Shown here piece after piece: positions 34,994-57,733 of a stretch of 64,000 nt of DNA. The stretch is taken from the NCBI RefSeq assembly GCF_015207035.1, contig NZ_JADEXQ010000011.1, forward strand, positions 1 to 64,000, read 5' to 3'. How positions within the stretch are numbered: position 1 is the first letter of the stretch; every line of letters begins with the position of its first letter. The translations under genes and the position numbers were made by a program. The notes under the pieces were generated by a model that saw nothing but the letters and a program-made list of their open reading frames with translations, did no database searches and was not told the origin of the DNA. Source of the stretch: Romeriopsis navalis LEGE 11480 (lineage in GTDB: Bacteria > Cyanobacteriota > Cyanobacteriia > Leptolyngbyales > Leptolyngbyaceae).

Positions 34994-36010
34994 CTAGTCT
35001 TTAGAATTAGGGAATAGGTTCTGGAAATCTTCTCGGTTACGTAAATCGTTCAAATTGGGATCACTTAGAGCTGCTTTGTTATTCGAATAACCTGTATCAA
35101 CTGCTCTTTTAAGTAAAAGCATTGCTTCATCATCTTTCCGGAGATATGCAAACCTACAACCAGCAGCATATAGCGCTTTAGCAGAAGCATCTCGACGTAT
35201 CTGACTGAGCTTATTGTGATAAATAGGCATCCCAAACGCCCACGAGGAATAGCCTCCTATCAACAAAATAAATATAATAATCTCAAAGGGTTTATGAGGA
35301 TTAGCAGCCCAATCAGCCAAAAGAGAATCTTCCAATTGACGCACGGTTCTTACATCGCTAGAGTGCCCAGAAACACTGAACTCTAGTTTATTGAATAAAC
35401 TAGAGTAATTATCTGCATACAAAACCAGCTTGAGATCAGATTTTGCAGGAAGGGTAGGCAATTTTGATAGCACAATTGAATCGTTTGAATGACCTTTTTC
35501 AATTTGACTGATTAGCTGAAGACGAGCATCAGGGCTTAGGAAAGTACCTTCTGCATCTGCAGACCAAAGTGCATAAACATTATCTAATCGGAGCTTTGCA
35601 TCTGATACAGGCTTGTTAGATTGATTTTCCAGCTCCACTATATATTTTTTAAAACCTTTATTGTAATAGAAATCTAACTTCTTAGCTATTGGGCTAATTA
35701 AAGGTTTTAAAGCATCACCCACTAGAGCATCCTTCCTTGTCTCCCGATTTGAAATTCCTTTAGTTTTATAAAGCAACTCTGCATCTCTATTGGCCGCAGG
35801 TATTTTCTTGAACCACTCGGCAATATCGGGAGGAAGCGTATTTTCCACAACTTGAACACGCACGATCACATCGGGCACAAGCATCGATGGAATTTTAGAA
35901 AAACCTGATATCAGTGTAGGGATGAATGCAAGTACTATGGCGACACCAATTCCGCTAAATACCCACTCGCGATTTTCTGAAATTACGGAACTTGCTTTTC
36001 TCATTTGCAT
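34994..36010 (-). CDS. AT-rich two-TM protein with TPR-like end
   Basis: A 338-residue protein I do not fully recognise. One hydrophobic helix lies near residues 17-38 and a second near 241-262. The outer part between them looks beta-rich, and the C-terminal about 60 residues, with AKALYAAGCRFAYLRKDDEAMLLLKRAVD, resemble a TPR end-of-group repeat. The gene is clearly richer in A and T and uses codons unlike its neighbours, which suggests recent transfer. It stands alone, convergent with the response regulator. Confidence 0.6.
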   Translation of the reverse strand: MQMRKASSVISENREWVFSGIGVAIVLAFIPTLISGFSKIPSMLVPDVIVRVQVVENTLPPDIAEWFKKIPAANRDAELLYKTKGISNRETRKDALVGDALKPLISPIAKKLDFYYNKGFKKYIVELENQSNKPVSDAKLRLDNVYALWSADAEGTFLSPDARLQLISQIEKGHSNDSIVLSKLPTLPAKSDLKLVLYADNYSSLFNKLEFSVSGHSSDVRTVRQLEDSLLADWAANPHKPFEIIIFILLIGGYSSWAFGMPIYHNKLSQIRRDASAKALYAAGCRFAYLRKDDEAMLLLKRAVDTGYSNNKAALSDPNLNDLRNREDFQNLFPNSKD

Positions 36011-38293: not shown

Positions 38294-39364
38294 CTAACCC
38301 ACACCTTGAGAATGGGATGAACTCTGAGATTGACTAACTTGTGATGGCGGCTTCAAATAGCGATCGAACCAAACGGTACTCGCTGGCTGTTGCTTCAGCT
38401 CCACGGCATAGATATACGCTTTAAATTGCTTAAATAACGCGGGATTCCGCCATCCCTTGTCAACCTCTTTTTGCATCATTTCGAGCGCATGCTCCGGGGT
38501 CATGCCGTCCTTATAGGGCCGCTCACTGACCAGTGCATCATAAATATCAATTAACTGAAATATTTGGGCTAAGTAAGGAATTTCATCACCTTGCAGCTGA
38601 TCCGGATAACCCGATCCATCCCAGCGCTCATGATGATGACGAATAATTGGCACAACCCCCTGCATCGTCCGCAGGGGCTTACAAATATTCTCACCAATCA
38701 AGGTATGCTGCTTCATCAGCTCAAACTCTGCCGGTGTAAACCGCCCTGGCTTCAGCAAGATTGCATCGGCAATACCAACTTTACCAATGTCATGCAGGTA
38801 GCCACCCCACATCAAATCCTGGACCTCTGATCGTGACAACCCAAGGTATTCCCCAAAACTCTTACCCCGCTGCACTAAGCGTTCACAATGATCGCCGGTA
38901 TTGGGATCACGGCTCTCGACTGTTTTCGCGATCGAAAACAATACTTTCTCAGCGTGATCGAGATCCTGGTTCAACCGCTTCTGACGCACCAAGGACTTCA
39001 CCCGCGCCGACAGCTCCACACGATCGAAAGGTTTGGTCAGAAAATCATCCCCGCCCGCCTCAATCCCCTGAATCCGGGCCGACTTCTCCTCCAGCGAGGT
39101 CATAAAAATCACGGGCATCAACCGCGTATTCTCATCCTGCTTGAGGCGGCGGCACACCTCATAGCCATCAATTCCTGGCATCAATACATCGAGTAACACG
39201 AGGTCTGGCTGATGCTGATGCACGATATCGATTGCGCTATAACCGTTATCCGCCTCCAAAACTTCATAGCCTTCGCAGATCAATACATCCACCGCCATCG
39301 CTCGGCTGGACCCCGTATCATCCACAATCAGAACCTTTGCCTGCTCTTGTTCTAAGGTACTCAC
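38294..39364 (-). CDS. Response regulator with HD-GYP domain
   Basis: Probable cyclic di-GMP phosphodiesterase controlled by a receiver domain (RpfG-like). The 356-residue protein starts with a receiver (about 8-125; D15-D16 pair, phospho-acceptor D59, lysine in FLTKPF). The HD-GYP domain follows, with HDIGK at 191-195, further histidines in HHERWDG, and G-Y-P at 252-254, so its metal site looks complete. The frame is open to a TTG at 39391, but the GTG at 39364 is the likelier start. No kinase is next to it. Confidence 0.9.
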   Translation of the reverse strand: MSTLEQEQAKVLIVDDTGSSRAMAVDVLICEGYEVLEADNGYSAIDIVHQHQPDLVLLDVLMPGIDGYEVCRRLKQDENTRLMPVIFMTSLEEKSARIQGIEAGGDDFLTKPFDRVELSARVKSLVRQKRLNQDLDHAEKVLFSIAKTVESRDPNTGDHCERLVQRGKSFGEYLGLSRSEVQDLMWGGYLHDIGKVGIADAILLKPGRFTPAEFELMKQHTLIGENICKPLRTMQGVVPIIRHHHERWDGSGYPDQLQGDEIPYLAQIFQLIDIYDALVSERPYKDGMTPEHALEMMQKEVDKGWRNPALFKQFKAYIYAVELKQQPASTVWFDRYLKPPSQVSQSQSSSHSQGVG

Positions 39365-42428: not shown

Positions 42429-42815
42429 ACTTACACGGAAAGTATATGAATACTCTTGATCTTAGAGGCTATGACCGCAAAATAATTGGGAAATCTTGAG
42501 CTCGCACGGCAAAGTTTACTCGCAATTACAAAAGTCATTAGTTCCTCATAATCAGTCATTTCACCTAGAACTTAGATAATACGGATAGGGATTGCCTAAT
42601 TTATCGAAAGAACATGAAATATCCAATAACCTCAGTAATTCCGCTTAATTCGGTTATTTTCTAAGTAAATTGGATCCAGTTTTATGCGTTACAAGCTCCA
42701 TGATCCGGATGATTCAGAATAATTTGTCTTATACTCTTATTCCATTCTGGATCAAGCGCTGTATAGTAAATCGCTAACCGAGTTTGATTGTTGTGTCGTG
42801 ACTCGATCGAGATTA
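42429..42815. other. AT-rich divergent spacer upstream of dnaA
   Basis: A 387-base AT-rich spacer between the helicase gene and dnaA. I looked for TTTTCCACA or TTATCCACA boxes and found none, so it does not look like the origin; it should hold two promoters. Confidence 0.55.
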
Positions 42816-44177
42816 ATGCCAAAACTCACGATCGATAGCCTTTGGTCTGAAGCATTGGAGCGCATGAAGCTACAGCTCAGTCGTCCTACGTTTGAAACGT
42901 GGATTCAAAGTGCTGTTCCAGCAGAATTAGAGAATAATTGTTTAACCCTGCGCACTCCTAATCCGTTTTCAAGGAATTGGATACAAAAATACTATATTAA
43001 TACGATTGTTTCAGCGCTTGAGGAGGTTGCAGGTTATCCGATCGATCTGCAATTAATCGTTGATCAAGATGAGCAGGATAGTTCCAGCAAACAGGTCGTT
43101 AGCAAGATTCATCGGAAAGAATTAACGCCACCGGTGTTGGTGCATACACCCCAGCAACGATCGATTCTTAATCCGCGCTATGTCTTTTCTCGGTTAGTGG
43201 TTGGTCCGAATAATCGGATGGCCCATGCTGCTTCACTCGCGGTGGCGGAATCACCGGGTCAAGAATTTAATCCGCTGTTTTTATGCGGTGGCGTTGGCCT
43301 TGGAAAAACCCATTTAATGCAAGCGATTGGTCATTACCGCCTTGAGATTGACCCAACCGCCAAGGTTTATTACGTTTCAACTGAGCGCTTTACCAATGAC
43401 TTGATCACGGCAATTCAGAAAGATGATATGCCAAGCTTTCGGGATCTGTATCGGGCGGCGGATGTGTTGTTAGTGGATGATATTCAGTTTATTGAAGGAA
43501 AGGAATATACCCAAGAAGAGTTCTTCCATACCTTTAATGCACTCTATGAAGCGGGTAAACAAGTGGTCTTGGCCAGCGATCGCCAACCGCATCAAATCCC
43601 GCGTTTGCAAGATCGGCTCTGTTCGCGTTTTTCGATGGGCTTGATCGCGGATATTCAGCCACCGGATTTTGAAACTCGGATGGCGGTATTACAGAAAAAA
43701 GCCGAATACGAGGATATGGCGCTACCCCGAGATGTGCTGGAATATATTGCGTCGAATTACACCAATAATATTCGGGAGTTAGAAGGTGCATTAAATCGTG
43801 CTGTGGCCTACATCTCAATTTCCGGCCTGCCAATGACGATTGAAAATATCACGCCAGTCCTGAATCCTGTGATGGAGAAGGTTGAAATTACACCGCAGGA
43901 CATTATTCAGGTGGTATCGCAGCATTTCAACGTCGCAGTTGAAGATATGAAAAGTAGTTCGCGGCGGCGTGAAATTAGTACCGCTCGTCAAATCGGCATG
44001 TATTTGATTCGGCAGCATACCGATTTGAGTCTGCCGAAAATTGGCGACGTATTTGGCGGCAAAGACCATACGACGGTACTGTACAGTTGTGACAAGATCG
44101 AAAAAAATAAAGCGGTTAATGCTGAACTGGCTCGCACAATTCAGCAATTAGGTGAGCAAATCACGGGTCGTCGCTAA
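42816..44177 (+). CDS. dnaA: Chromosomal replication initiator DnaA
   Basis: Binds DnaA boxes and opens the origin. The protein of about 453 residues has domain I (about 1-90, [22 protein letters not shown]), a short linker, the AAA+ domain with Walker [10 protein letters not shown] (158-166) and Walker B LLVDDIQF (218-225), and the domain IV helix-turn-helix with the signature [21 protein letters not shown] at 42798 could add six residues; the ATG at 42816 fits other cyanobacterial N-termini better. It is not next to dnaN but about 10.7 kb away. Confidence 0.95.
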
Positions 44178-44223: not shown

Positions 44224-45996
44224 GTGGTAAGGGTTGCGCGTCAGGCGTTGGCGCTGCTGTTTTGGATGGGGTTAGCGACTTATCTCTACGGTAGTACCTT
44301 AACCCTAAAGCCCTTGTGGAGCGATGAGTTCGCTACGATTGTGTTTAGTTTGGGCCGTAGTTTTCAAGCAATTCCGATTAACCAAATACTGGATTCGTCG
44401 GATTTATTGGCCCCGCTTCAGACGGCCCCATCGACGAGTTGGGCAACGGTGTTACATCGACTATTGACGGAAGATACCCATCCACCGGTATTTTTTTGGC
44501 TGAATTATGAGTGGATTCATGTGGGCAGCCGCTGGCTGCCCGATTGGTTTGCCCATGCGTCTGGTGCGCCTTCGGTTTGGGCTGTGCGATCGCTCTCGGC
44601 TTTCTGTGGTGTTTTGTGTGTGCCGGCGATGTTTGGTTTGGCTTGGGTCACGACGCGATCGTCTGCCGTGGCCCAGTTAGCCGCTGGATTAATGGCGGTC
44701 TCGCCGTTTGGCTTGTATTTGGCCCAAGAAGCGCGGCACTATAGCCTGGCAACGCTGTGGGTGATTCTGGCCTTGACCAGTTGGATGACGGTTGTGCGAT
44801 CGTGGCAGCAGCGATTATTCCCGTCATGGTGGGTGAGCTTTGCCTGGATTGGCATTAACGCCCTTGGCCTGGCCACACATTACTTTTTCAGTTTGATTTT
44901 TTTAGCGCAAGCAATGGTTTTACTGTTGCTTTTGGGGGTGGATTTCAGCACGCGTTGGCAGCGTTGGCCGGCTGGGGCGGGTTGGGGATTTTGGTCGCGT
45001 GTGGGGCTGGTCGCGATCGCCACAGCGATAAATCTGTTGGTTTGGTTGGCTGTCTGGCAAAGCATTTCTCGCAGTGAATTAATTCAGTGGGTCTATACCG
45101 GGGCCCAAACGGGTTGGCAAGCCTGGCTGAATCCCCTGTTGAATTTATTGGTTGGCGGCATCACCATGACTGTTTTGTTGCCGATTCAATCTGTGCCACC
45201 GGGGATGGGGCGACTGGCCGGGGCGCTAACGATCGTTTGTGCATTGCTGATAATTTGGGGAGTGATTCGTGGTTTGAGGCAACAGTGGCAGGCGCGACAG
45301 CAGCGTTTATTGCTGTGGGCTACGCTGGCGAGTTTGGCGGGGGCGCTAGTGGGGTTGTTGTACCTGGATTATGGTTTGGGCGCGGATGTCACCCGGGGAT
45401 TTCGATTTAACTTCCTCTATTTACCGAGTCTGCTGTTGTTGGTCGCTTGGGGCCTGGGAATGGACCGGCGTGAGGTCCGTCAGCGTTGGCGGTGGGGGTA
45501 TGCGGTGTTATTGCTGGGGTTACTCGGTTCTCTGACGGTTGGTCATAATTGGGGCTATCAAAAAGTGCATCGGCCGGAGTTGATTGCGTCAGCGATCGTT
45601 CAGCTCGAACAAACAATCGCCGATGAGACTGCGCCCCAGACAGAATCATCAACCGCACCAATTTTAATTGCAGCACCCTATCGAACCCATGCCCAAACCA
45701 CCCGCTTGATGAGTTTGGCTTGGGACTTACAACAACGCCAACAACCGGCGCGCTTTTACCTTGATCAGCAGCAATGTCAGCCAACGGACCCGATCGCCTG
45801 TCGCCAGTTAACCGCATTCGCGCAGCAGCAAATTCCAGCGCAGATGGCCTATCCTTTTCGGTTGTGGTTAATTAATTACAATTCGCTCGATAACTTGTCG
45901 CCGATCGGCTGTGATCGAGATTTGCAAGTGGGTGTGCAGCAGGTCGATGGTTTTACGGCCCAGCCCTATCGTTGCGAAAAGCCCCCGCAGACTTAA
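44224..45996 (+). CDS. GT39-type membrane glycosyltransferase (second copy)
   Basis: A 590-residue polytopic protein of the same GT-C type as the gene at 27547-29271. The acidic pair is D34-E35 in LWSDEFATI, followed by DTHPPVFFWLNYEW and AQEARHYSLATLW. About eleven helices precede a soluble C-terminal part with several cysteines. The start is GTG at 44224, 46 bases after dnaA in the same direction, so the two genes may be cotranscribed. The sugar donor and acceptor are unknown. Confidence 0.88.
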   Translation: MVRVARQALALLFWMGLATYLYGSTLTLKPLWSDEFATIVFSLGRSFQAIPINQILDSSDLLAPLQTAPSTSWATVLHRLLTEDTHPPVFFWLNYEWIHVGSRWLPDWFAHASGAPSVWAVRSLSAFCGVLCVPAMFGLAWVTTRSSAVAQLAAGLMAVSPFGLYLAQEARHYSLATLWVILALTSWMTVVRSWQQRLFPSWWVSFAWIGINALGLATHYFFSLIFLAQAMVLLLLLGVDFSTRWQRWPAGAGWGFWSRVGLVAIATAINLLVWLAVWQSISRSELIQWVYTGAQTGWQAWLNPLLNLLVGGITMTVLLPIQSVPPGMGRLAGALTIVCALLIIWGVIRGLRQQWQARQQRLLLWATLASLAGALVGLLYLDYGLGADVTRGFRFNFLYLPSLLLLVAWGLGMDRREVRQRWRWGYAVLLLGLLGSLTVGHNWGYQKVHRPELIASAIVQLEQTIADETAPQTESSTAPILIAAPYRTHAQTTRLMSLAWDLQQRQQPARFYLDQQQCQPTDPIACRQLTAFAQQQIPAQMAYPFRLWLINYNSLDNLSPIGCDRDLQVGVQQVDGFTAQPYRCEKPPQT

Positions 45997-46012
45997 CTGC
46001 GAGGGCTTGTTT
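45981..46012 (+). terminator. Terminator after the second GT39 gene
   Basis: A stem of ten positions with one mismatch (45981-45990 with 45997-46006) and a six-base loop overlaps the GT39 stop codon and is followed by a short T-rich stretch. Confidence 0.75.
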
Positions 46013-46068
46013 GGCGTATCTTCAATTGTCTGGATCAACCAGTTGACGCAAGTAAACGACTTGCCGAA

Positions 46069-49000
46069 TTAAACGAGGGCACCAAGGGTTTGTAGTAACT
46101 CTTGCTCGTTATAGGGCTTCGAGAAGTAAGCGGTGGCGCCCAGGTTCATGGCCAGTTTCCGGTGTTTCTCACTACTCCGTGAGGTGAGCATGGCGATCGG
46201 CAGTTCGCGGAACTCCGATCGGGTTTTAATTTCGCTCAGGACGCCATAACCATCTAAGCGTGGCATCTCAACGTCACAAATCACTGCTTGGACGCGTAAG
46301 CCACCGAGCAGTTGATCAACTGCTTCTTGACCATCCCGGGCTTGCTCCACCAAATATCCGGCTTTTTCGAGTGATAGGGCCAGATAACGTCGTGCATGAA
46401 TTGAATCATCAACCACGAGCACTGTGACATTGTCATCGGCGGATGATGCCGTTGGGCTGTCATCCATTCCAGCATCTCGATCAGCGCTGTCGGGACTTGC
46501 GGTTTCATCACTTGGACGTGTGGTGATTGATTCATGCAAGTCAAGGACGGCCATTGGATCGAGGAGTGGTACAACTCGACCATCACCCAGGGTGGTGACA
46601 CCACTGAAACCCTCGGGCAGTGCTAACGGACTGGCAACCGGCCGAATCGCAACTTCCTGCTCGGCCCAGAACCGTTTGACCTGCAAGCCATAGGCTTGGG
46701 TCCCACTGCCAACGACGACAACCAGCGGGTGGTTGATCATCGGGTTACCGGACATTTCGGTTTGCTTCGTCCCAGGGGCAAAATTCCAATGCTGCTCCGG
46801 ATTATGCAGCGGAATTGTGCTGTCTTGCCAGACGATCGATGCGCCATCGGCTTCGGACTGGATATCGATGCTGGCCAGCGGTAAAATTTCCTTCACCACA
46901 TCCAACGGAATCGCAAAGGTAAAGCCACTGGTTTCCAATAGCATCACGCGGAAGATCGAGAGTGACAACGGAATACTGATGGTAAACGTTGACCCTTTGC
47001 CGAGTTCGGTCGTAACGCTAATATCACCTTGAACTTTTTTCAAGTTGGACTTCACCACGTCCATCCCGACGCCGCGACCCGACAGCTCCGTTACCTTATC
47101 CGCGGTACTAAATCCGGCATCGAAAATCATATCCAGCAGTTTCTGTTCGGAGAACTCCTGAATCTGGGCTTCGGGAATGCCGTATTGCCGAATTTTGTTG
47201 CGGATTTTATCGAGATTAATCCCGCCGCCATCATCACTCATGGTGACGATCGCCCGGTTACCCCGTTGGGAGGCCCGAATGGTAATCGTTCCTTCACTGG
47301 GTTTGCCGTTGGCCTCGCGAACTTCCGGTGTCTCGATACCGTGGTCAAAGGCATTGCGCAGGAGGTGATTAATTGGGTCAGTCAGAATATCAAGGGCGTA
47401 ACGCTCAAACAGCGTATTTTCTCCCTCGATCGCCAGCTTCACCTGTTTGCCGTATTTCACAGCATAGTCGCGCATGACCCGTGGGAAGCGTCCCACGATG
47501 TCTTCAAACGGCCGCATCTGAGTCCGCGTAATTCGAGTTTGTAGATTACGACTCGTCAAGTTGAGGCTGTTGTTTGCCTGCTGCATTTCTTGGTTAGTCA
47601 GGTTGATATCCCCGATCACCTCTTGCAGTTTGACGATCGTTTCCATCTGCTCCTGGGCCAACAGATGCAATTCCGAATATTGGTCCATTTCCAAGGCGTC
47701 AAATCCGGAATCCGAGGATTGACTCGGGCTCGGCAGGCCCATTCCGACTGGGACACTGGCCCCATTTGCCGCTGGGACTAAGTCTTCCATGGAAGCTTGG
47801 TCATACCAACGCCGCAGTTCGAGGTTAAAGCCTTCGAGATCGTCCATGCGCTGTCGCAATAGGCCCATCAGATCCTGAAACTGCTCTAAACGCAAGTTGA
47901 TCGAGTTACGATCAAGAATCAAGGCGCTAAACAAGCTATTGATCTGTCGTAGTTGCTCAACGGGCACACGAATATTGGCATCCGATGCCGTTTTCGCGGC
48001 GGCGGGTCGCTGGGTTTTGGCAGGAGTTGGCAGTTTGACCGGAGTTGGCGGTTTGACAGCGGGTGCCGTTGGCGCGGCGGGTGCCGGAATTGCCTCAGGT
48101 TCCGGGATATCCGGTAGGCTAATGTTGGACATCGCCGTTTGGAGCTGCGCTAGATCCGTCAGATCAAAGCTGGCAGTCGTGACGTCCGGTGCGTCATCGA
48201 CCGGTGCGATGTTTGAGTCGCTGGTCGCGTCGGGCGTTGTAGCGGCGTCCTCGATCGATGCATCGCTAGCGGCGGCATCGGGTTCAACGGCTGGTATTGC
48301 CGGTGCCATCGCACTCAAGTCGATGCCTTCGAGCGCGGTTAAACTTGCTTGGAGGCTGGAGAGGTCGTTCGCATCAATTTCCGGTACGACTGCCGGTGCT
48401 GCCGGCTCATCCGTAGGCGCGGCAAGTTCATCCGTCGCGATCGCCGCAGTATTGGCAATGGACCATTCCAATGCCGTTGGCAACTGTTCGACACGACCCA
48501 GCTCGACTAACGCACTGGTGCGTTGCCACAGCTCCAGTGCCTCATCGGCGATGTGATTAATTTGGCTGAGGTTGGCGGTGCTGGCTTCCGCTTGAATCGA
48601 GCCGCAGAGGGCCACAAACGGGTCAACTTCACCAATCAAACCAAACTCCATCATTTTGGTGCTGGCTTGAATCAGACTTTGGCGTAGCTCTTCGCCGCTG
48701 AGTGTGGGACGTAATGCCTCAAACTCCGTCAATGCGCCATCCACACCACTGGTAAACATGACAGTTGTAATGTCAATGTCTTCGTTGGCGGCGAGCAGGG
48801 TATTTTCGTCGGCTTCGGTCACACTGCCGAGGCGATCGCGCAGTTGATCAAAGATCGGCGTCGCCCGCTCGTTCATCCAAGCATCATCCACCGGAATTTC
48901 TTCATAGTGGCAATGCTTTACCGCCCGTAGACAGTCGATGCCCTGTAGCAGCAATGTTTCGAGGCCCGTATCGATTTCAATTTGCCGCGCTCGCAGAATT

Positions 49001-49218
49001 TTAAAGGAATCCTCCAAGTGGTGGGCCACTTGGCTGAGCGGCATGAAACCCATCATCCCCGCACTACCTTTAATCGAGTGGGCGGCCCGCAATGCGGCAT
49101 CCAACTGTTGCGGGCGATCCTCGGCCGTGGCGAGATTCAGCAGAATTGTTTCTAACTGCTCAAAGTATTCTTCGGCTTCTTCTAAAAAATTCAGCCGTAC
49201 CTGTTGTTCTGTGTCCAT
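46069..49218 (-). CDS. Hybrid CheA-type kinase of the pilus chemosensory system
   Basis: Histidine kinase of 1049 residues that takes signals from the MCP through CheW. Order: Hpt domain with phospho-acceptor H47 (AAHSIKGSAGMMG), a second helical part to about 250, a low-complexity Ala/Asp/Pro linker (about 260-410), dimerisation region, HATPase with HLLRNAFDHGIE and DDGGGI, a CheW-like domain (about 740-890), and a C-terminal receiver (about 930-1049) with D982 in ICDVEMPRLDG. This matches PilL/ChpA-type and Synechocystis tax-locus kinases. It is the last gene of a five-gene minus-strand operon. Confidence 0.92.
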   Translation of the reverse strand: MDTEQQVRLNFLEEAEEYFEQLETILLNLATAEDRPQQLDAALRAAHSIKGSAGMMGFMPLSQVAHHLEDSFKILRARQIEIDTGLETLLLQGIDCLRAVKHCHYEEIPVDDAWMNERATPIFDQLRDRLGSVTEADENTLLAANEDIDITTVMFTSGVDGALTEFEALRPTLSGEELRQSLIQASTKMMEFGLIGEVDPFVALCGSIQAEASTANLSQINHIADEALELWQRTSALVELGRVEQLPTALEWSIANTAAIATDELAAPTDEPAAPAVVPEIDANDLSSLQASLTALEGIDLSAMAPAIPAVEPDAAASDASIEDAATTPDATSDSNIAPVDDAPDVTTASFDLTDLAQLQTAMSNISLPDIPEPEAIPAPAAPTAPAVKPPTPVKLPTPAKTQRPAAAKTASDANIRVPVEQLRQINSLFSALILDRNSINLRLEQFQDLMGLLRQRMDDLEGFNLELRRWYDQASMEDLVPAANGASVPVGMGLPSPSQSSDSGFDALEMDQYSELHLLAQEQMETIVKLQEVIGDINLTNQEMQQANNSLNLTSRNLQTRITRTQMRPFEDIVGRFPRVMRDYAVKYGKQVKLAIEGENTLFERYALDILTDPINHLLRNAFDHGIETPEVREANGKPSEGTITIRASQRGNRAIVTMSDDGGGINLDKIRNKIRQYGIPEAQIQEFSEQKLLDMIFDAGFSTADKVTELSGRGVGMDVVKSNLKKVQGDISVTTELGKGSTFTISIPLSLSIFRVMLLETSGFTFAIPLDVVKEILPLASIDIQSEADGASIVWQDSTIPLHNPEQHWNFAPGTKQTEMSGNPMINHPLVVVVGSGTQAYGLQVKRFWAEQEVAIRPVASPLALPEGFSGVTTLGDGRVVPLLDPMAVLDLHESITTRPSDETASPDSADRDAGMDDSPTASSADDNVTVLVVDDSIHARRYLALSLEKAGYLVEQARDGQEAVDQLLGGLRVQAVICDVEMPRLDGYGVLSEIKTRSEFRELPIAMLTSRSSEKHRKLAMNLGATAYFSKPYNEQELLQTLGALV

Positions 49219-49287
49219 GATTGCTTACCTAGGCCCAAACGTACGACGTGCAAAATAACGACATGCAAGAAAACATGCTGGCGCATC

Positions 49288-51810
49288 TTAAACCGCGGCT
49301 TGTGTACCCTCCTCTACGGCTGCTGCCTGGACATCAATACTCGGGGCAGCATCAGCCAAATCAGCGGTGTCGGCCACCTTAAACTGGGCCACTGACTCTT
49401 GCAGTGAACGGGCAATTTCGGCTGTATCTTGAATTGCTTGGGCCATTTGCTCCGAGGCTTTGGCGCGTTGCTCCGACTCAACCGTGGCGGATTTCACCTG
49501 GTTGGTTACAACGTCTGCCGCCGCAGTCTGTGCCGTGGTGGACTCGGAAATCGATCGCATCAGTTGGTTAATTTGGGCCGACTTTTGCAGTACCTGAGTC
49601 AGGCGCTGTTTCGTACTTTCAACCAACTGGGTACTATCAACCACCTGTGCTGTACCGGTTTCAATCGCGCCGACTACCTCCTGCGTTTCGGCCTGAATTG
49701 CCGATACAATTTGGGCAATCTCCTTGGTCGCGGATGCTGACTGCTCTGCCAGGGCTCCGACCTGCTCCGCAACCGCCGTAAAGCCTTGACCCAATTCACC
49801 GGCGCGGGCTGCTTCCACACTGGCGTTTACGGCCAAGAGGTTGGTCTTCAGGGCAATCTCGTCAATCAAGCTCACCGTCTGAGAAATCTTCTGGGCCGAT
49901 TCACCCAATCGTTTGATTTTCTTCGCCGTTTCGCCGACCGTCGATCGGAGGTTCAGGATACTGTCTACCGTCTTATCCATGTACTCACTACCGTCTTGTA
50001 CCGATGCGTAAGTTTCATCGGTGAGCTTCGACGCTTGGTCCGCGTTGTTGGCAACGGTTTGAATCGACATGGATACTTCTTCCACCGACTGCATGGTTTG
50101 ACGCAGACTGTTGGCCTCGGCAATTGCCTGGGTGGCCAAGCTGCGAATTCCCTCAGCGTTGACATCCAGTGACATACCTACTTGTCCCGAGGAGGTCTTC
50201 ACCTGCATTGCGGTGTTCCGCAAGTTTTCAATAATCGAGTTGAACAAGTCAGCCACAATCCCCACGTCTGTGGCTGAGAGCTGGGCCCGAACGGTGAGGT
50301 CACCTTCACTGGCATCGCTCACATCGTCCATCAACTGCATGATGTCGCCTTCCAGTTCATCCCGTTGACGACCTTGCTCGGCGGCGAGCTTCTCTTGCTT
50401 TCCAAGTAGACCTTGCACTTCATCCAGTAGACGGTTGAAGGCGGTGGCCAGGGTGCGTGTCTCCACCGTACCTTGGCCGTCAACTCGCAAGTCCAGTTTA
50501 CCCTCGGCCACTTCTTCCGCAGTTTTGGTCAATTCAACCAACGGTTGAGCCAAGTTACGGGCCAATAGCAATACAAAGAAGGAACCCAGGATACTCAAAA
50601 TCAGTGAACTACCGATAAATACGTTCAGGGATTCTTGACCAGCCGCGTTAACGATACGTGCTTCTTCCGAACTCACAGCGACGAGGTCAGTCCCGCGAAC
50701 GGCCGTGAGACTGTAGTAGCGATCGCCCAGTTTGATTAAGACACCGTTAATCCGATACTTTGTATCCCGATGGCCCTTGTCCTGCCGGTTCTTCACCTGC
50801 TTGACCTGGGCTTCTGCTTGCCCAGAACCGCCAAGCGCGGTGATATCGAGATCGCCGACGAGCTCAAATCCACCGATCCGGCTCAAGTTTTGTTTAAATG
50901 CTTCAAGTCCATCGTAGTCAAAGCCGCCGAGATTCGCCTTGACGACCTGTTGGGAGATTTGTTGAATTTTCTTCCCGCCGAGCAATTGCTGTTTAGCTTT
51001 AGTTTCGGTTTTGAGCTTCTCTTTGGTAATGGTGGTAACGACGTTACCGCTCTTGCTATCGATTAGCTGAATTTGCTCACCATCAACCATCTCTTTCTGA
51101 ACGAACCGTGCCAGTTCTTTCTGGAAAAAGTCGGTTTTGATCGCCATCTTCACGACACCCAAGGATTCTAAGCCAGCGGGGTCGTAAATCTTGCGCGCCG
51201 TTGCCACAACGCTTTGTTGGGCTGATTCATCAAATTCTGGTTCGTCGATAAATGAACCATTGCTATTTGCGGCCTGCCACCACTTTTCATCACTTTGCAC
51301 AAAGTCGGATGTGGGTTCACCGGCGGCAAGGGTAAAACCATTGCGATCGGTAATAAAGATTTCTGCCAGACCATCGGTGCGTAGTAAGCGCTTGAGGTAA
51401 GTATTGATCTCAGGGTTGGTTTCGAGCTGATGCAGGCCATCAAACCGTTTCTCAAGCGCCTCTAGGTTCTCGGGTTTACTCAAGTTAAGCTTGTTCAGGC
51501 CCTGACTGGCGACCGTTTCTTTAGACTTAGCAAATAATGCGAGAATTTCGGGGCTTTGGCGAACGACCTCGATAATATCCTGCTTGCCTTTGAAGATCGA
51601 TTCGGTGGCCAGACTAATATCGATCCCGTCCTTTCGGACTCGCTTTAGTTCTGCTTCACGACCGCGATTACGTGAGATGGTATAGCCGAGTCCACCCGCA
51701 ACGAGCAGTGGCACGAGTACCAGTGGCAGAACGCTGAGCAATAACCGACGCGGTAGGGTTTGCTTAGTGTCAGCGATGATGTTGGGTTTGACGGAGCTTG
51801 CTTTGATCAT
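49288..51810 (-). CDS. Methyl-accepting chemotaxis protein (PilJ-like)
   Basis: Membrane signal receptor of 840 residues for twitching or phototaxis-type motility. An N-terminal helix (about 25-48), a large outer sensor domain of cache type (about 50-395), a second helix (about 397-420), a HAMP domain, another HAMP-like segment near 500-535, and a long cytoplasmic coiled coil follow. The conserved hairpin tip reads [21 protein letters not shown] with [16 protein letters not shown] after it. No CheR or CheB gene is seen nearby, so adaptation may be absent or encoded elsewhere. Confidence 0.93.
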
Positions 51811-51931
51811 TGGTGTGTACCGGTTCCCAGAACTAAAGTAAGGACAGAAGTAAATCGATTTGTTGTGTTTTTATGCTCAATGGTGGGTCGCGTAGACTAA
51901 GCGCTGACCCGTCATTGATTTCCGGTTGCGA

Positions 51932-52486
51932 TCAGCCAATATTGGCCAATGCCTCAGGATTCAGAATTAAAAGTGTTTCATTATCTTGAGTGACTTGCCC
52001 CGATAAAAAAGGCTGCAAATGTGAGTCGACATTGGCCTCGATCGGTGCAATATCCTCAGCGGCGAAGCGAATTGAACCCTTAATTTGGTTCACAGTTAAA
52101 CCTAGAAATAAATCTGAGTCACTGTCGCTCTCGGAACCGCCCGCATTCGGTGTGATGCGAATAACAATGGTTTCGTAGCGGTAGGCCCGTTCGACATCCG
52201 TCGTCAGACCCAATAGTTTTGCGAGGGAGGATAGCCATAGGACTTGTCCTCGAATTCGCATCAGGCCCAACACATGGTTCGGCATATTGGGCATTGGTGT
52301 AATGTCTTGGGGCGTCAACAACTGGGTTTCTTCAACGCAGTCGAGGGGTAGCACCATGGCCGTATCAGCCGAAACTTGCAATCGTAAAAAGGCGTTGCCA
52401 GTCCGTTCATCTACTTCAAACAACTGTGGCAGTAGTGTCTGTAAACGATCGGCTGGCTTAGCGGTTTGAGGGACAGGGACTTGCAT
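51932..52486 (-). CDS. CheW-like coupling protein
   Basis: Links the MCP to the CheA kinase. The 184-residue protein is a single CheW domain: FLRLQVSADTAMVLPLDCVEETQLL, then the strand MPNHVLGLMRIRGQVLWLSSLAKLLGL typical of CheW, and a later LFLGLTVNQIKGSIRF. It lies between the CheY and MCP genes on the same strand, with gaps of 25 and 121 bases. Confidence 0.93.
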   Translation of the reverse strand: MQVPVPQTAKPADRLQTLLPQLFEVDERTGNAFLRLQVSADTAMVLPLDCVEETQLLTPQDITPMPNMPNHVLGLMRIRGQVLWLSSLAKLLGLTTDVERAYRYETIVIRITPNAGGSESDSDSDLFLGLTVNQIKGSIRFAAEDIAPIEANVDSHLQPFLSGQVTQDNETLLILNPEALANIG

Positions 52487-52511
52487 AATTAAATATGAGT
52501 GGCGATGACGC

Positions 52512-52877
52512 TTATACCGAAACCGACTGAACGGCGCTAACCAGTTCTTCCTGCGAACAAGGCTTGATCACGTAAGCATCAACGCCTTGCTTCTTCGCCC
52601 AAGTTTGGTCAACTTGGCGATCTTTGGTGGTACAAGCGACGATCGGAATTGCCGATGTTGTGGCATCTTTTTTCAAGAGGCGGCAGAGTTCCAAGCCGGT
52701 AATCTGTGGCATGACCAAGTCAGTCACAATAATGTCAGGCAGGCTAGCTTTGGCTTGTTCAAATGCCTCTTCGCCATTCTCAGCAGTCGATACAACATAT
52801 CCCGCTGATTGTAAGTAATTGCTAATCAATTGCAATTCGGATTTCATATCATCAACGATCAAAACTTTCTTAGCCAT
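52512..52877 (-). CDS. CheY-like response regulator (PilH/PixH-like)
   Basis: Single receiver domain of 121 residues with no output domain. The acidic pair D9-D10 in LIVDDMKSE, phospho-acceptor D53 in IIVTDLVMPQ, threonine in VACTTKD, and K in VIKPCS are all present. It is second in the chemosensory operon, after the PatA-like regulator. Such proteins probably act on pilus motors or compete for phosphate from the kinase. Confidence 0.93.
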   Translation of the reverse strand: MAKKVLIVDDMKSELQLISNYLQSAGYVVSTAENGEEAFEQAKASLPDIIVTDLVMPQITGLELCRLLKKDATTSAIPIVACTTKDRQVDQTWAKKQGVDAYVIKPCSQEELVSAVQSVSV

Positions 52878-53012
52878 GGGTTGCTACCTGCGATTGGGGA
52901 AAATTTAGGACGGTAAATCAATCAGCAATTTAATGTTAACCATTTGCCTATTGGGACATCTCCGCTAATGCACAGATTAAATAGTGGACAACATTAAAAA
53001 GATTAAGTGGAA

Positions 53013-54206
53013 CTACGTAGCGTAAGCCGCTGGCTGAGTTAAGTATTGATTAACTAAGTTCAGCAACTCTTCTTTGGAAAACGGTTTTGTGAGGTAGTCG
53101 GTGGCTCCTGCCGCTTTGGCTTTTTCTTTATCTAAGACACCGGTATTGCCGCTGACCATGACGATCGGCACATTGGTGAAAACCGAACTGCGCTTCAGAA
53201 TTTGGCAGAGACGGTTGCCGTCAATTCCTGGCATCGAGACGTCCATCAAAATCAAATCGGGCTTCATATCAAATAGCGCCGAAAGTGATGCCATGGGATT
53301 TTCCACCGTGGCGATTTCAAAGTTCTCAGTGCCGAGATAGCGCTGAATGGTGTCGAGTACCGTCGGACTATCGTCGATGCAGACGACCTTATATCGCGGT
53401 TGGTTGGAATTACCGAATCCGGCACTTGCACTCATGCTGTTCGCCGCCATGGCTGGTGCAGCATGGGGGCTCGGAATGGTTGGGAGCTGATGATATGGTG
53501 CGCGTGCCCCTTCTAGCCGCAGCACGCCCGCATTGATATAGGGGTGCAATACTTGGCTGAGTTTTAAGACATCTTGCTTCAACAAGAACGCGAGCTGACG
53601 AATGCTGATGCCTTGCATCAACCGCGCCATCATTTCCAAGGTTTGGGTTGGCAGAACGCCTTGAGCGACGGGCTGGGTCAATTTGCCCATGTCATCACAG
53701 CGAGGGCATTGGTAGGGGCTCGAAATGATTGGCTGGAGGCTCTTCCAGGTATCAACTCGCTGTTCGAGGTGATAGACAAAACTATTAATGTCAATACTGC
53801 TAGTTTGTAAACTGGCCGGCGCGATCGCCTGTTCTTGCCATTGCGCATTGCCGTCTTTGGTCCACAGGAGACTTTCGAGCGCGTCTTCGGCGATCGCCCG
53901 CAGTAATTGTTGAACTTGACCTTGGCCCAGAATTTGTCGCTCAATCATTTGGGCGACCGCATCACGCAGGCTGAGTTCAGCATTTTCCTGGAGCAGGCTG
54001 CGGAATGCCGGCACCGCGGACTCAAATCCAAGTTCTTGAATGAACTGTTCTAAAATTTCAGTCGATTGTAGGGAGTTGCAGGCGTAATGCAGCTGCGCAC
54101 CAGTCAAACCGATATGCCAGGTCACACCATTGCGGTTAATTTCGAGTTCACCGCTCGGTCGATGCACCGATTCTTTGAGAAGTTGAACAATATCACATGG
54201 ATTCAT
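53013..54206 (-). CDS. PatA-like response regulator (PilG/PixG-like)
   Basis: First gene of the operon. The 397-residue protein has an N-terminal PATAN/DUF4388-type domain (about 1-100, with SGELEINRNGVTWHIGL), a helical middle with CPRC, and a C-terminal receiver domain (about 270-395) with acidic pair in CIDDSPT, phospho-acceptor D322 in LILMDVSMPGIDG and lysine in YLTKPF. This order is the mark of cyanobacterial PatA-type regulators such as PixG and TaxP1, which set pilus-based movement. The upstream region runs into the putative origin. Confidence 0.92.
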   Translation of the reverse strand: MNPCDIVQLLKESVHRPSGELEINRNGVTWHIGLTGAQLHYACNSLQSTEILEQFIQELGFESAVPAFRSLLQENAELSLRDAVAQMIERQILGQGQVQQLLRAIAEDALESLLWTKDGNAQWQEQAIAPASLQTSSIDINSFVYHLEQRVDTWKSLQPIISSPYQCPRCDDMGKLTQPVAQGVLPTQTLEMMARLMQGISIRQLAFLLKQDVLKLSQVLHPYINAGVLRLEGARAPYHQLPTIPSPHAAPAMAANSMSASAGFGNSNQPRYKVVCIDDSPTVLDTIQRYLGTENFEIATVENPMASLSALFDMKPDLILMDVSMPGIDGNRLCQILKRSSVFTNVPIVMVSGNTGVLDKEKAKAAGATDYLTKPFSKEELLNLVNQYLTQPAAYAT

Positions 54207-54887
54207 TATGCAGTCTCATCCTTAACGCAGAAGGCTACTCATTGATATTGTTAGCCTTATGACAACGGACCCCCTAGCGAACTTGGTGAGGTCATGTGCA
54301 TCCACGGCATGTCACTCAAAGATTGAATTGACAATTGTGATACTGATGCTTGGCTAACATTGCAGGTGGAACGGCAATGGGTATTACCCTCCCAATTCCC
54401 CTGAACTTACATTTCCCCGCCGCAAAGCCGGACTAACAGATTGGCGCTGAATTTCAATATTCAATGACAAAGACTTAACAACTTATGACGATTGGCAGCA
54501 TGATGCCAGACACCTGTGGAAAACTTTTAAAGATGGGTGAAAAAATGCTTGACTCAGAAAGTTAATCGGCTCAAATCCCCTTGATTACGATGTTGTTGAA
54601 AAAAGCACCCTGTGGAAAACGTGGAGGCTCCGCGAATTCCACAGCCATGGAAGTGCAGGTTTTCCGATCATTCTCCGAGTTTTCCACAGTTTCAACAGGT
54701 TTAGCGTGGCCGAAATTGGGTGACCCCTATATATGGTGGAGAAGTCCTAGAAGATCGAGCCAAGGGGTGTTAACATGGGCCGCAAGATTCGCAATTTTGT
54801 TTGACTGTTGGACAGTGGCGATCGTGCGTTATTGCTACGTCAGCTTTTCCTCCCCAAACTTTCCATATTTCTCCCAGCGTGACCGCC
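54207..54887. other. Putative replication origin region (oriC) upstream of dnaN
   Basis: This 681-base spacer holds three perfect copies of TTTTCCACA, the DnaA box form used by several cyanobacteria: 54515-54523 (minus), 54611-54619 (minus) and 54680-54688 (plus). Weaker copies are at 54635-54643 (AATTCCACA) and 54660-54668. They cluster within about 175 bases beside dnaN, as in other cyanobacterial origins. Flanking genes are transcribed away on both sides. No clear 13-mer AT unwinding block was assigned. Confidence 0.7.
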
Positions 54888-56048
54888 ATGAAATTGATCT
54901 GTAGCCAGAGTAATCTCAATGCCAACCTGTCCCTGGTGAGCCGGGCAGTATCGTCGCGTCCGACTCATCCGGTATTGGCAAATGTCTTATTAAATGCCGA
55001 TGAGGAGAGCCAGACGGTAAAGCTCTGTGCGTTTGATCTGAGTTTGGGGATTCAGACGAGCTTTCCAGCGCAGGTGAAGACGGGTGGCGTATTGACGTTG
55101 CCAGCGAAATTGTTGAGTGATATTATTTCGCGCTTGCCAGACGGTGAAATCATTTTGGATGATGGTGGTGATGCCGAGGAACCAGAGGCCGGACTAATTA
55201 CGACGATCACATCATCATCCACATCATCATCTGGGCGCTATCAGGTGCGGGGATTAGGTGCAGAGGACTTTCCGGAGTTGCCGACGATCGAAGCCGGTGA
55301 CAGTGTGCAGCTACCAGCGGAAGCCTTAATTGATGGTTTGAAGAGTTCGCTCTTTTCGGCCAGTTCGGATGAGACGAAGCAAGTGCTGACGGGTGTGCAT
55401 CTCAATGTGCAGGCCGAGGGTTTGGAGTTTGCGGCAACGGATGGTCACCGTTTGGCAGTGGTGCAAACGGTGAACGAAGAGGGCACAGCGGCCCAGGAAG
55501 ATTTGGCGGTGACAGTACCGGCGAAGGCATTGCAAGAGCTGATTAAGATGTTGGAGCGCAGCAGTAATACATCCGTCGCGGTGAAGTTTGACCCGGCTCA
55601 AGCGGTGTTTGAGTGGGGCGATCAGCGATTGACCAGTCGATTGCTGGAGGCGCAGTACCCGAATTATCAGCAGCTTTTGCCGAAGCAGTTTAGCCATCAG
55701 ATGACCATCGATCGTCGCTTGTTCCTCGGGGCCTTGGAGCGAATTTCGGTGTTAGCGGACCAGCGCAATAACATTGTGAAGCTGAGTCTCGATCCGAGTG
55801 CCGGTACGGTGCAAGTGTCGGTGGATGCGCAGGATGTGGGGAGTGGTCAGGAGACCGTTGCCGCGCAGATTTCCGGTGATGCGATGGATGTTGCGTTTAA
55901 TGTGCGCTACTTGATCGAGGGCTTGAAGGTGGTGACTTCTACGGAGATTCAGTTGCAGTTGAATACACCGACCAGCCCAGCAGTTTTGGTGCCACTAGGT
56001 AGTCTGAAGATGCAGTACTTAGTGATGCCGGTGCAAATTAGATCCTGA
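54888..56048 (+). CDS. dnaN: DNA polymerase III beta sliding clamp
   Basis: Ring-shaped clamp that tethers polymerase to DNA. The 386-residue protein has the three clamp domains, with MKLICSQSNLNANLSLVSRAV start, HPVLANVLL in domain 1, a central FAATDGHRLA block, and the normal C-terminal end VLVPLGSLKMQYLVMPVQI, where clamp-binding peptides dock. The ATG at 54888 gives the family start; the longer frame adds 29 unrelated residues. It is preceded by the DnaA-box cluster. Confidence 0.96.
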   Translation: MKLICSQSNLNANLSLVSRAVSSRPTHPVLANVLLNADEESQTVKLCAFDLSLGIQTSFPAQVKTGGVLTLPAKLLSDIISRLPDGEIILDDGGDAEEPEAGLITTITSSSTSSSGRYQVRGLGAEDFPELPTIEAGDSVQLPAEALIDGLKSSLFSASSDETKQVLTGVHLNVQAEGLEFAATDGHRLAVVQTVNEEGTAAQEDLAVTVPAKALQELIKMLERSSNTSVAVKFDPAQAVFEWGDQRLTSRLLEAQYPNYQQLLPKQFSHQMTIDRRLFLGALERISVLADQRNNIVKLSLDPSAGTVQVSVDAQDVGSGQETVAAQISGDAMDVAFNVRYLIEGLKVVTSTEIQLQLNTPTSPAVLVPLGSLKMQYLVMPVQIRS

Positions 56049-56104: not shown

Positions 56105-57103
56105 ATGCGTTTTTCTGATGATGATATAGAGTTCGATGCACTCTCTGCCATTCGGTTTGAGGAACTTTGTTATGACTTGCTTTCACAACAGAAATTCCAT
56201 CGATTACGTTGGAACCAAGGAGGTGCAGATAATGGACGAGATATTGAGGCATTGCTTCGCATCGGAAATTCCTTAGTTGGTTCTTACGAGGAAAAGTGGT
56301 TTTTTGAGTGTAAAAGATGGTCAAGAGGTCTTCCTGTCGATGAAATTTCATCTAAGTTCGACTGGGCTGAAGTGGAAAAAGCACAACATTTAGTTCTGTT
56401 AACTAATTCGTATCTTACGAGACAGGCACGTGACTGGGTCGAGAAAAAATTGTCGAAATGTTCTTTTCGTTTCCATGAGATTGATGGCAAGAAACTAAAG
56501 CAGATACTGCTTTTGCGCGAACATCAGAATCTTATCGAGAAATATTTTCTGAGCCAAGCTGAAAAAATATTTCTGCAGGAATTTCAACGTTGGAGAGACT
56601 ATGGATTTTTCCCAAGCAGTGATAACTTTCAATTTTTTTTCGAGAACCTTAATCTAGAAAAGTTGACAGTTGATGAGATCGCATTTTTATGGATTGTGTT
56701 TGCTTATGGTGTAGAAAATAATGGACAACTAAAAGTTGCTAGGGCGCGAGAAGAGCTTTACATCATTTTAAAGACGCTAACGCTCCGTCAATTTAGCGTG
56801 ACTACTCAAGATTCTCCTTTAGTGGATCGAGAATGGCAAATTCGACTTCAGAGTCATACTGAGTCTTTTCTTGATGCCAGCATGGCAGTTGTTCCAACGT
56901 CTATGAAAGTACTGTTTAGTCTGAATAGGGGGGATTTTAGTCAAGAACCAGAAATATTCTACTTCTGCCGTCGATTTTCGGAGCATAGTGGGATTGAAGT
57001 TTTACTATCGCGTGACCCAATTATTAAGACCAGTGTTCAGTTGTTGAATGTGAATCCGCTACTGCGTGCTGATAATCTTCTCAAAGATCTGGGTGAGGCA
57101 TAG
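56105..57103 (+). CDS. Mrr-like restriction endonuclease-fold protein
   Basis: A 332-residue protein whose first about 130 residues look like an Mrr_cat PD-(D/E)xK nuclease: FEELCYDLL helix, GGADNGRDIEA with D46, then WFFECKRW with E68-x-K70 and a VLLTNSYLT strand. The remaining about 200 residues are helical and not recognised; they could be a sensor or partner domain. The gene is AT-rich compared with dnaN and starts 56 bases after it. A defence role against foreign or modified DNA is inference. No methyltransferase is nearby, as would suit a type IV-like enzyme. Confidence 0.72.
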   Translation: MRFSDDDIEFDALSAIRFEELCYDLLSQQKFHRLRWNQGGADNGRDIEALLRIGNSLVGSYEEKWFFECKRWSRGLPVDEISSKFDWAEVEKAQHLVLLTNSYLTRQARDWVEKKLSKCSFRFHEIDGKKLKQILLLREHQNLIEKYFLSQAEKIFLQEFQRWRDYGFFPSSDNFQFFFENLNLEKLTVDEIAFLWIVFAYGVENNGQLKVARAREELYIILKTLTLRQFSVTTQDSPLVDREWQIRLQSHTESFLDASMAVVPTSMKVLFSLNRGDFSQEPEIFYFCRRFSEHSGIEVLLSRDPIIKTSVQLLNVNPLLRADNLLKDLGEA

Positions 57104-57115
57104 AAGGCTACAAAT

Positions 57116-57733
57116 ATGTCGCAAGATTGTCAGAAAAAGCCTTGGACCTTTGAGTCATTTCTCGCCCAACATGGTGACGACGATCGCTACGAACTGATTG
57201 ATGGGCAGCTATTTGATTTGGAACCGACTGGGCCTCATGAGGAAGTTGCCGCGTTTGTCGCTCGGAAAATCAATGTTCAGATTGACATATTAGACCTACC
57301 GTTTTTTATTCCACAGCGCTGTCTGATTAAGCCGCAATCTGACTTAACGGGTTTTCGGCCCGATCTGGTTGTGTTGGATCGGACCGAATTAGTCAATGAA
57401 CTCCGCTGGCATCGCGAACCGGTAATCACGTCGGGCCGCAGCATTCAATTTGTCGTCGAAGTTGTCAGGAGCAACTGGCAAAATGATTATGCGCGGAAGA
57501 TTGAAGACTATGCAGCATTAGGCATCGCTGAATATTGGATTGTTGATTATGCCGCGCTCGTTGGAATACGCTTCATTGGTAAACCCAAGCAGCCGACTCT
57601 GACAATCTGTAAGTTGGTTGACGATCGCTACGAAGAAGTCCAACTCCGTGGCAGCGAGCAAATTACCTCACCCATATTTCCAGGACTCAACTTAACAGCA
57701 GAGCAGGTTTTACAATCGGCAACGGTTATCTAA
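57116..57733 (+). CDS. Uma2 family endonuclease (second copy)
   Basis: A 205-residue PD-(D/E)xK-fold protein of the Uma2/DUF820 family: DDRYELIDGQLFDLEPTG, then FRPDLVVLDR, FVVEVVRSNWQNDYARKIEDYAALGIAEYWIVDY, and an LTAEQVLQSA end. It starts 12 bases after the Mrr-like gene, so the two are probably cotranscribed. The first Uma2 copy in the window (36152-36715) is not closely similar by eye. Confidence 0.87.
   Translation: MSQDCQKKPWTFESFLAQHGDDDRYELIDGQLFDLEPTGPHEEVAAFVARKINVQIDILDLPFFIPQRCLIKPQSDLTGFRPDLVVLDRTELVNELRWHREPVITSGRSIQFVVEVVRSNWQNDYARKIEDYAALGIAEYWIVDYAALVGIRFIGKPKQPTLTICKLVDDRYEEVQLRGSEQITSPIFPGLNLTAEQVLQSATVI

Follow-up and report, generated by a model that had tools for sequence, protein, structure and literature searches.

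A probable dnaN-side replication origin of Romeriopsis navalis LEGE 11480, set apart from dnaA and apparently lacking the DnaA-trio element of its sister origins

Introduction

A DnaA-dependent origin has been mapped near dnaN in Synechococcus elongatus (PMC7198777). TTTTCCACA is the cyanobacterial DnaA box, and binding of DnaA to an oriC beside dnaN has been demonstrated in Cyanothece (PMC4674748): in the oriC of the circular chromosome of Cyanothece ATCC 51142, three TTTTCCACA boxes are located where dnaN begins, and the DNA-binding domain of DnaA binds them in vitro. In the oriC of S. elongatus PCC 7942, 7 of the 11 repeats read TTTTCCACA, according to a report as cited by PMC4674748. The succession of DnaA box, spacer and DnaA-trios is the published arrangement of BUS, the basal unwinding system, S. 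elongatus being among those tested, and no trios were found in 15% of bacteria (PMC8287927). Although they retain dnaA, some cyanobacteria replicate independently of DnaA-oriC, and inferring origin activity from boxes is less safe in cyanobacteria than in any other group (PMC7198777).

The DNA analyzed here, referred to as the window, spans the first 64 kb of contig C11 (NZ_JADEXQ010000011.1; 97.7 kb) in the draft genome of R. navalis LEGE 11480 (6.47 Mb, 251 contigs). Its box cluster shares with the PCC 7942 oriC the position beside dnaN, the TTTTCCACA boxes and a genome with clear GC skew (PMC7198777; PMC4674748), whereas it holds three exact boxes, is 12 kb distant from the fitted skew switch and has a predicted activity. 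The cluster also matches the Cyanothece oriC in its three exact boxes, but has another neighbor gene and adds several degenerate boxes. Most likely, the locus represents the known origin type with two local departures, namely the separation from dnaA and a trio element that is lost or changed. The analysis fixes a likely origin for this draft genome.

Results and Discussion

Exact TTTTCCACA boxes were found at 54515-54523 (minus strand), 54611-54619 (minus) and 54680-54688 (plus), confirming the three that a sequence-only reading had placed just upstream of dnaN. The window holds a single stray copy elsewhere, at 35841, and shuffling gave an expectation of about 0.76 exact boxes per 64 kb. Counting over the whole genome yielded 54 exact boxes, among which the group at 54.5 kb is the tightest, with no second group as tight; a triplet this tight has a chance expectation of about 5e-5. 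The two near matches reported earlier proved an undercount, as the cluster and its immediate edges hold one box with 1 mismatch (TTTTCAACA, 54594-54602, minus) and four with 2 mismatches: TTTTTCACC (54536-54544, minus), AATTCCACA (54635-54643, plus), GTTTCAACA (54689-54697, plus) and TTCTCCACC (54735-54743, minus). The boxes face outward from the middle of the cluster, which is about 180-230 bp long.

The gene on the right, identified by family model, is dnaN, encoding the DNA polymerase III beta clamp (54888-56048, plus). Its likely start is the ATG at 54888 and not the TTG at 54801 of the called ORF, since the DnaN model starts at residue 30 of the ORF from TTG 54801. The gene on the left (53013-54206) is on the minus strand, and the flanking genes therefore diverge from the cluster as described before. 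Also borne out was the lack of boxes in the spacer between a helicase gene and dnaA (42429-42797), which holds none at up to 2 mismatches.

The initiator gene dnaA itself (42798-44177, plus; family model) is intact. Sequence comparison showed that its product retains the Walker motifs and the box-binding signature, together with two isoleucines aligned with the single-stranded DNA-binding motif of Bacillus subtilis DnaA; motifs for ATPase activity, single-stranded DNA binding and box binding are thus all present. The assignment of motif roles was taken in part from PMC8287927. A private change was observed in the QKDD stretch that follows the single-stranded DNA-binding motif, where the window DnaA has Q and 20 of 20 relatives compared have R, at the position of R194 in B. 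subtilis numbering. Nothing on this change beside the motif was found in PMC10721633.

The locus was compared with dnaN loci of public genomes (80) and of related genomes (a further 30). Among these loci, those of most cyanobacteria of the Leptolyngbya type carry 3-7 exact boxes upstream of dnaN, in a recurrent layout: counted from the first box, minus-strand boxes stand at 0 and 21-22, often with one more near 95, and plus-strand boxes near 113 and 124, and the array closes with a tandem pair at about 178 and 187. About six ancestral positions are kept in the window, three as exact boxes (offsets 0, 96 and 165) and three as degenerate boxes with 2 mismatches (offsets 21, 120 and 174), the 1-mismatch box lying outside the ancestral positions. 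The exact box at 165 and the degenerate one at 174 form the terminal tandem pair, which is displaced by about 12-14 bp relative to the relatives while its 9-bp step is unchanged. Since the frequency of boxes having at most 2 mismatches is 0.0016 per position per strand, degenerate boxes at both offset 21 and the tandem position are, by our own estimate, unlikely to have arisen by chance. In most relatives the boxes lie upstream of dnaN whether dnaA is adjacent or not, and dnaA loci separate from dnaN contain 0-2 exact boxes, the cluster remaining with dnaN. Because the layout recurs and the boxes stay with dnaN, the cluster is identified as homologous to the dnaN-side oriC already described (PMC4674748, PMC7198777). 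Sister origins (L007, L014, L019, L094, L100 and others) have in common a GTATTTATAC/GTATAAATAC palindrome that separates their minus-strand from their plus-strand boxes; it was not seen in the window.

The separation from dnaA is made by an inserted block of about 10 kb (44224-54206) that comprises one membrane-type ORF without clear family (44224-45996, plus) and a chemotaxis operon encoding CheA, MCP, CheW, CheY and PatA-like proteins (46069-54206, minus). This separation is unique to the window among the relatives examined. The loci of the nearest relatives (G009, G014, G023, G020 and G004) share with the window the left-hand homologs of the genes at 38294 and 39759 (minus), followed by dnaA, boxes and dnaN, but in them dnaA stands directly before the boxes. 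The best relatives of the PatA-like gene (50%) were confined to G033 and G009, in the latter on a different contig, and relatives of the 44224 ORF reached at most 43%. The chemotaxis operon has a skew close to zero, intermediate between the means of leading and lagging genes, which would fit recent acquisition or a switch of orientation without proving either. Short repeats flanking the block were sought and not found. The ancestral dnaA-oriC-dnaN order would accordingly have been broken in this lineage by some 10 kb placed just downstream of dnaA, and should this origin be active, its distance of 10 kb from dnaA would show that the two can part.

Strand asymmetry was sampled over about 1.2 Mb in 28 contigs including C11, with contigs unordered and ORFs called mechanically; one of the sampled stretches, L188, was masked. 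The third-position GC skew averaged +0.26 in leading genes (n = 266) and -0.18 in lagging genes (n = 258), and was strong in most of the 59 sampled stretches, with a few contigs weak or mixed. On C11 the skew is mostly negative until 42.4 kb and mostly positive from 42.8 kb. The gain of this origin-type (lagging-to-leading) switch was 84.9, compared with at most 20.8 on the 27 other sampled contigs. The strong skew and the switch on C11, by far the clearest among the 28 contigs, would favor one fixed origin here. The family members G013 and G022 have no consistent skew (L143-L182); both are complete-contig members of the same family, unlike the strongly skewed window genome (G000). The loci of G009 and G014 likewise look strongly skewed. 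Strong asymmetry here and none in G013 and G022 offers a natural test of whether dependence on DnaA-oriC tracks strand asymmetry within one family.

The skew minimum and best switch lie at 42.4-42.8 kb, 5' of dnaA and 12 kb from the boxes, and a switch there fits about 12.5 log units better than one at the boxes. A skew minimum elsewhere had been named beforehand as evidence against an origin beside dnaN; the minimum does lie 12 kb off, but the strongest origin-type switch is on the same contig. Among the nearest relatives, those that are strongly skewed have a leading dnaA (+0.38 to +0.55; L003-L005 and L203), as do L064 and L057, and in all of these the boxes lie 3' of the gene. As dnaA reads as leading in relatives whose boxes are 3' of it, the switch normally falls on the far side of dnaA, and the 12-kb offset does not refute the box site because dnaA is leading also where oriC directly follows. 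The offset is explained by the insertion between dnaA and the boxes, and relatives have it over a shorter range.

The second departure concerns the sequence that follows the tandem boxes. Sister origins end in TTTTCCACA-TTTTCCACA-GCCCC-TACTACTACT-GTTTAAAT or near variants. At the site where they have the GC spacer and the CTACTACTACT DnaA-trios (54698-54720, plus), the window reads GGTTTAGCGTGG... and has TTTTCCACAGTTTCAACAGGTTTAGCG, and a trio run looked for after the tandem boxes was not found. The locus shares with the BUS arrangement (PMC8287927) the tandem boxes 9 bp apart facing dnaN, the second of them degenerate, but unlike the sister origins it has no DnaA-trio run within reach of the boxes. 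Loci were scored for three or more trios of the 3'-GAT-5' type within 0-16 bp of a DnaA box. The best candidates in the window scored 5 and 4, which is the level of permissive chance hits, whereas sister origins scored 9-13. The pattern was passed by 14 of 14 sister loci and, with these included, by 50 of the 60 loci with at least two boxes outside the window's clade, compared with 3 of 16 within the clade (defined by a single-gene DnaN tree, support 99) and 3% of shuffled sequences. The three passing loci of the clade (L010, L012 and L092) have deviant sequence. These figures refer to the strict trio score, as a looser trio label yields false positives, for example L008. At the 54515 box, a trio run that faces left (ATC ATG CTG, spacer 10) was rejected as a candidate; it matches the permissive published pattern, hits to which are common by chance.

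The trio element of the sister origins appears to be lost or altered beyond recognition here. Tentatively, the clade may have lost the oriC DnaA-trio but retained the boxes together with an intact DnaA, several of its members also keeping strong asymmetry, in which case opening could proceed by another element or on the opposite side of the cluster. The least stable 50 bp near the cluster (54447-54496; z 2.5) lie left of the first box and form a weak candidate for the unwinding stretch, this stability minimum not being outstanding on the contig. The locus offers a natural test of whether an origin that lacks the trio element kept by sister lineages can be opened through its DnaA boxes.

Taken together, the cluster is quite probably the working oriC of the main chromosome, of the known cyanobacterial dnaN-side type. 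The earlier proposal of an oriC beside dnaN is upheld in part, by the neighboring gene, the boxes, the homologous layout and the switch on the contig; it is weakened by the minimum 12 kb off, the missing trio element and the fact that dnaN-side boxes are no proof of DnaA-dependent initiation. The reduction to three exact boxes and the weakness of the AT-rich minimum beside them also count against a working oriC. The boxes, their conserved layout, their uniqueness as a cluster in the genome and the skew switch on C11 are direct observations. Since cyanobacteria can retain boxes without DnaA-dependent initiation, activity at this site is inferred, and so are binding by DnaA, melting and the departure of forks. 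The product of the intact dnaA gene, 10.3 kb leftward, would bind the three exact TTTTCCACA boxes together with several degenerate ones and melt the adjacent DNA, the AT-richer stretch at 54447-54496 being one possible opening site, and two forks would depart in opposite directions.

The same partly degenerate array, with its trio element gone, could instead be a fossil whose boxes persist, perhaps because DnaA regulates dnaN or its neighbors through them, while replication starts elsewhere or at multiple sites, as in Synechocystis 6803 or Nostoc 7120. DnaA-independent replication is reported in dnaA-bearing cyanobacteria (PMC7198777), and skew is absent in the relatives G013 and G022; however, this genome differs from those two in its strong strand skew, and its clearest origin-type switch sits on C11, and we consider a fossil origin unlikely. 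Gene regulation by DnaA boxes is also known in bacteria (PMC7198777), but that the cluster is a chance grouping or a DnaA-controlled promoter region that was never an origin is scarcely credible: the chance expectation of about 5e-5 stands against it, and homology disfavors it, with dozens of dnaN loci sharing the layout.

The skew itself would place the working origin in the dnaA 5' spacer (42429-42797), acting through non-canonical sites: the best change point falls exactly there, 12.5 log units ahead of the boxes, and the spacer is 64% AT. Against this, the spacer holds neither a DnaA box at up to 2 mismatches nor a box-trio motif, and strongly skewed relatives have a leading dnaA with all boxes just 3' of it. 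As dnaA leads in these relatives although the boxes lie 3', skew cannot resolve the interval between dnaA and the boxes; moreover, two of the genes that drive the fit lie in or border the recent insert, which may carry skew from an earlier place. An origin in the spacer is rated quite improbable because no box is there, and the dnaN-side cluster is preferred.

Two further observations concern dnaN. It is directly followed by two nuclease-like genes (56105-57733) with Mrr_cat and Uma2 domains. A second, divergent dnaN (34-38% identity), in some cases with internal stops, is present in several relatives (G007:C41, G023:C15, G016:C176, G003:C8, G019:C104 and G018:C38).
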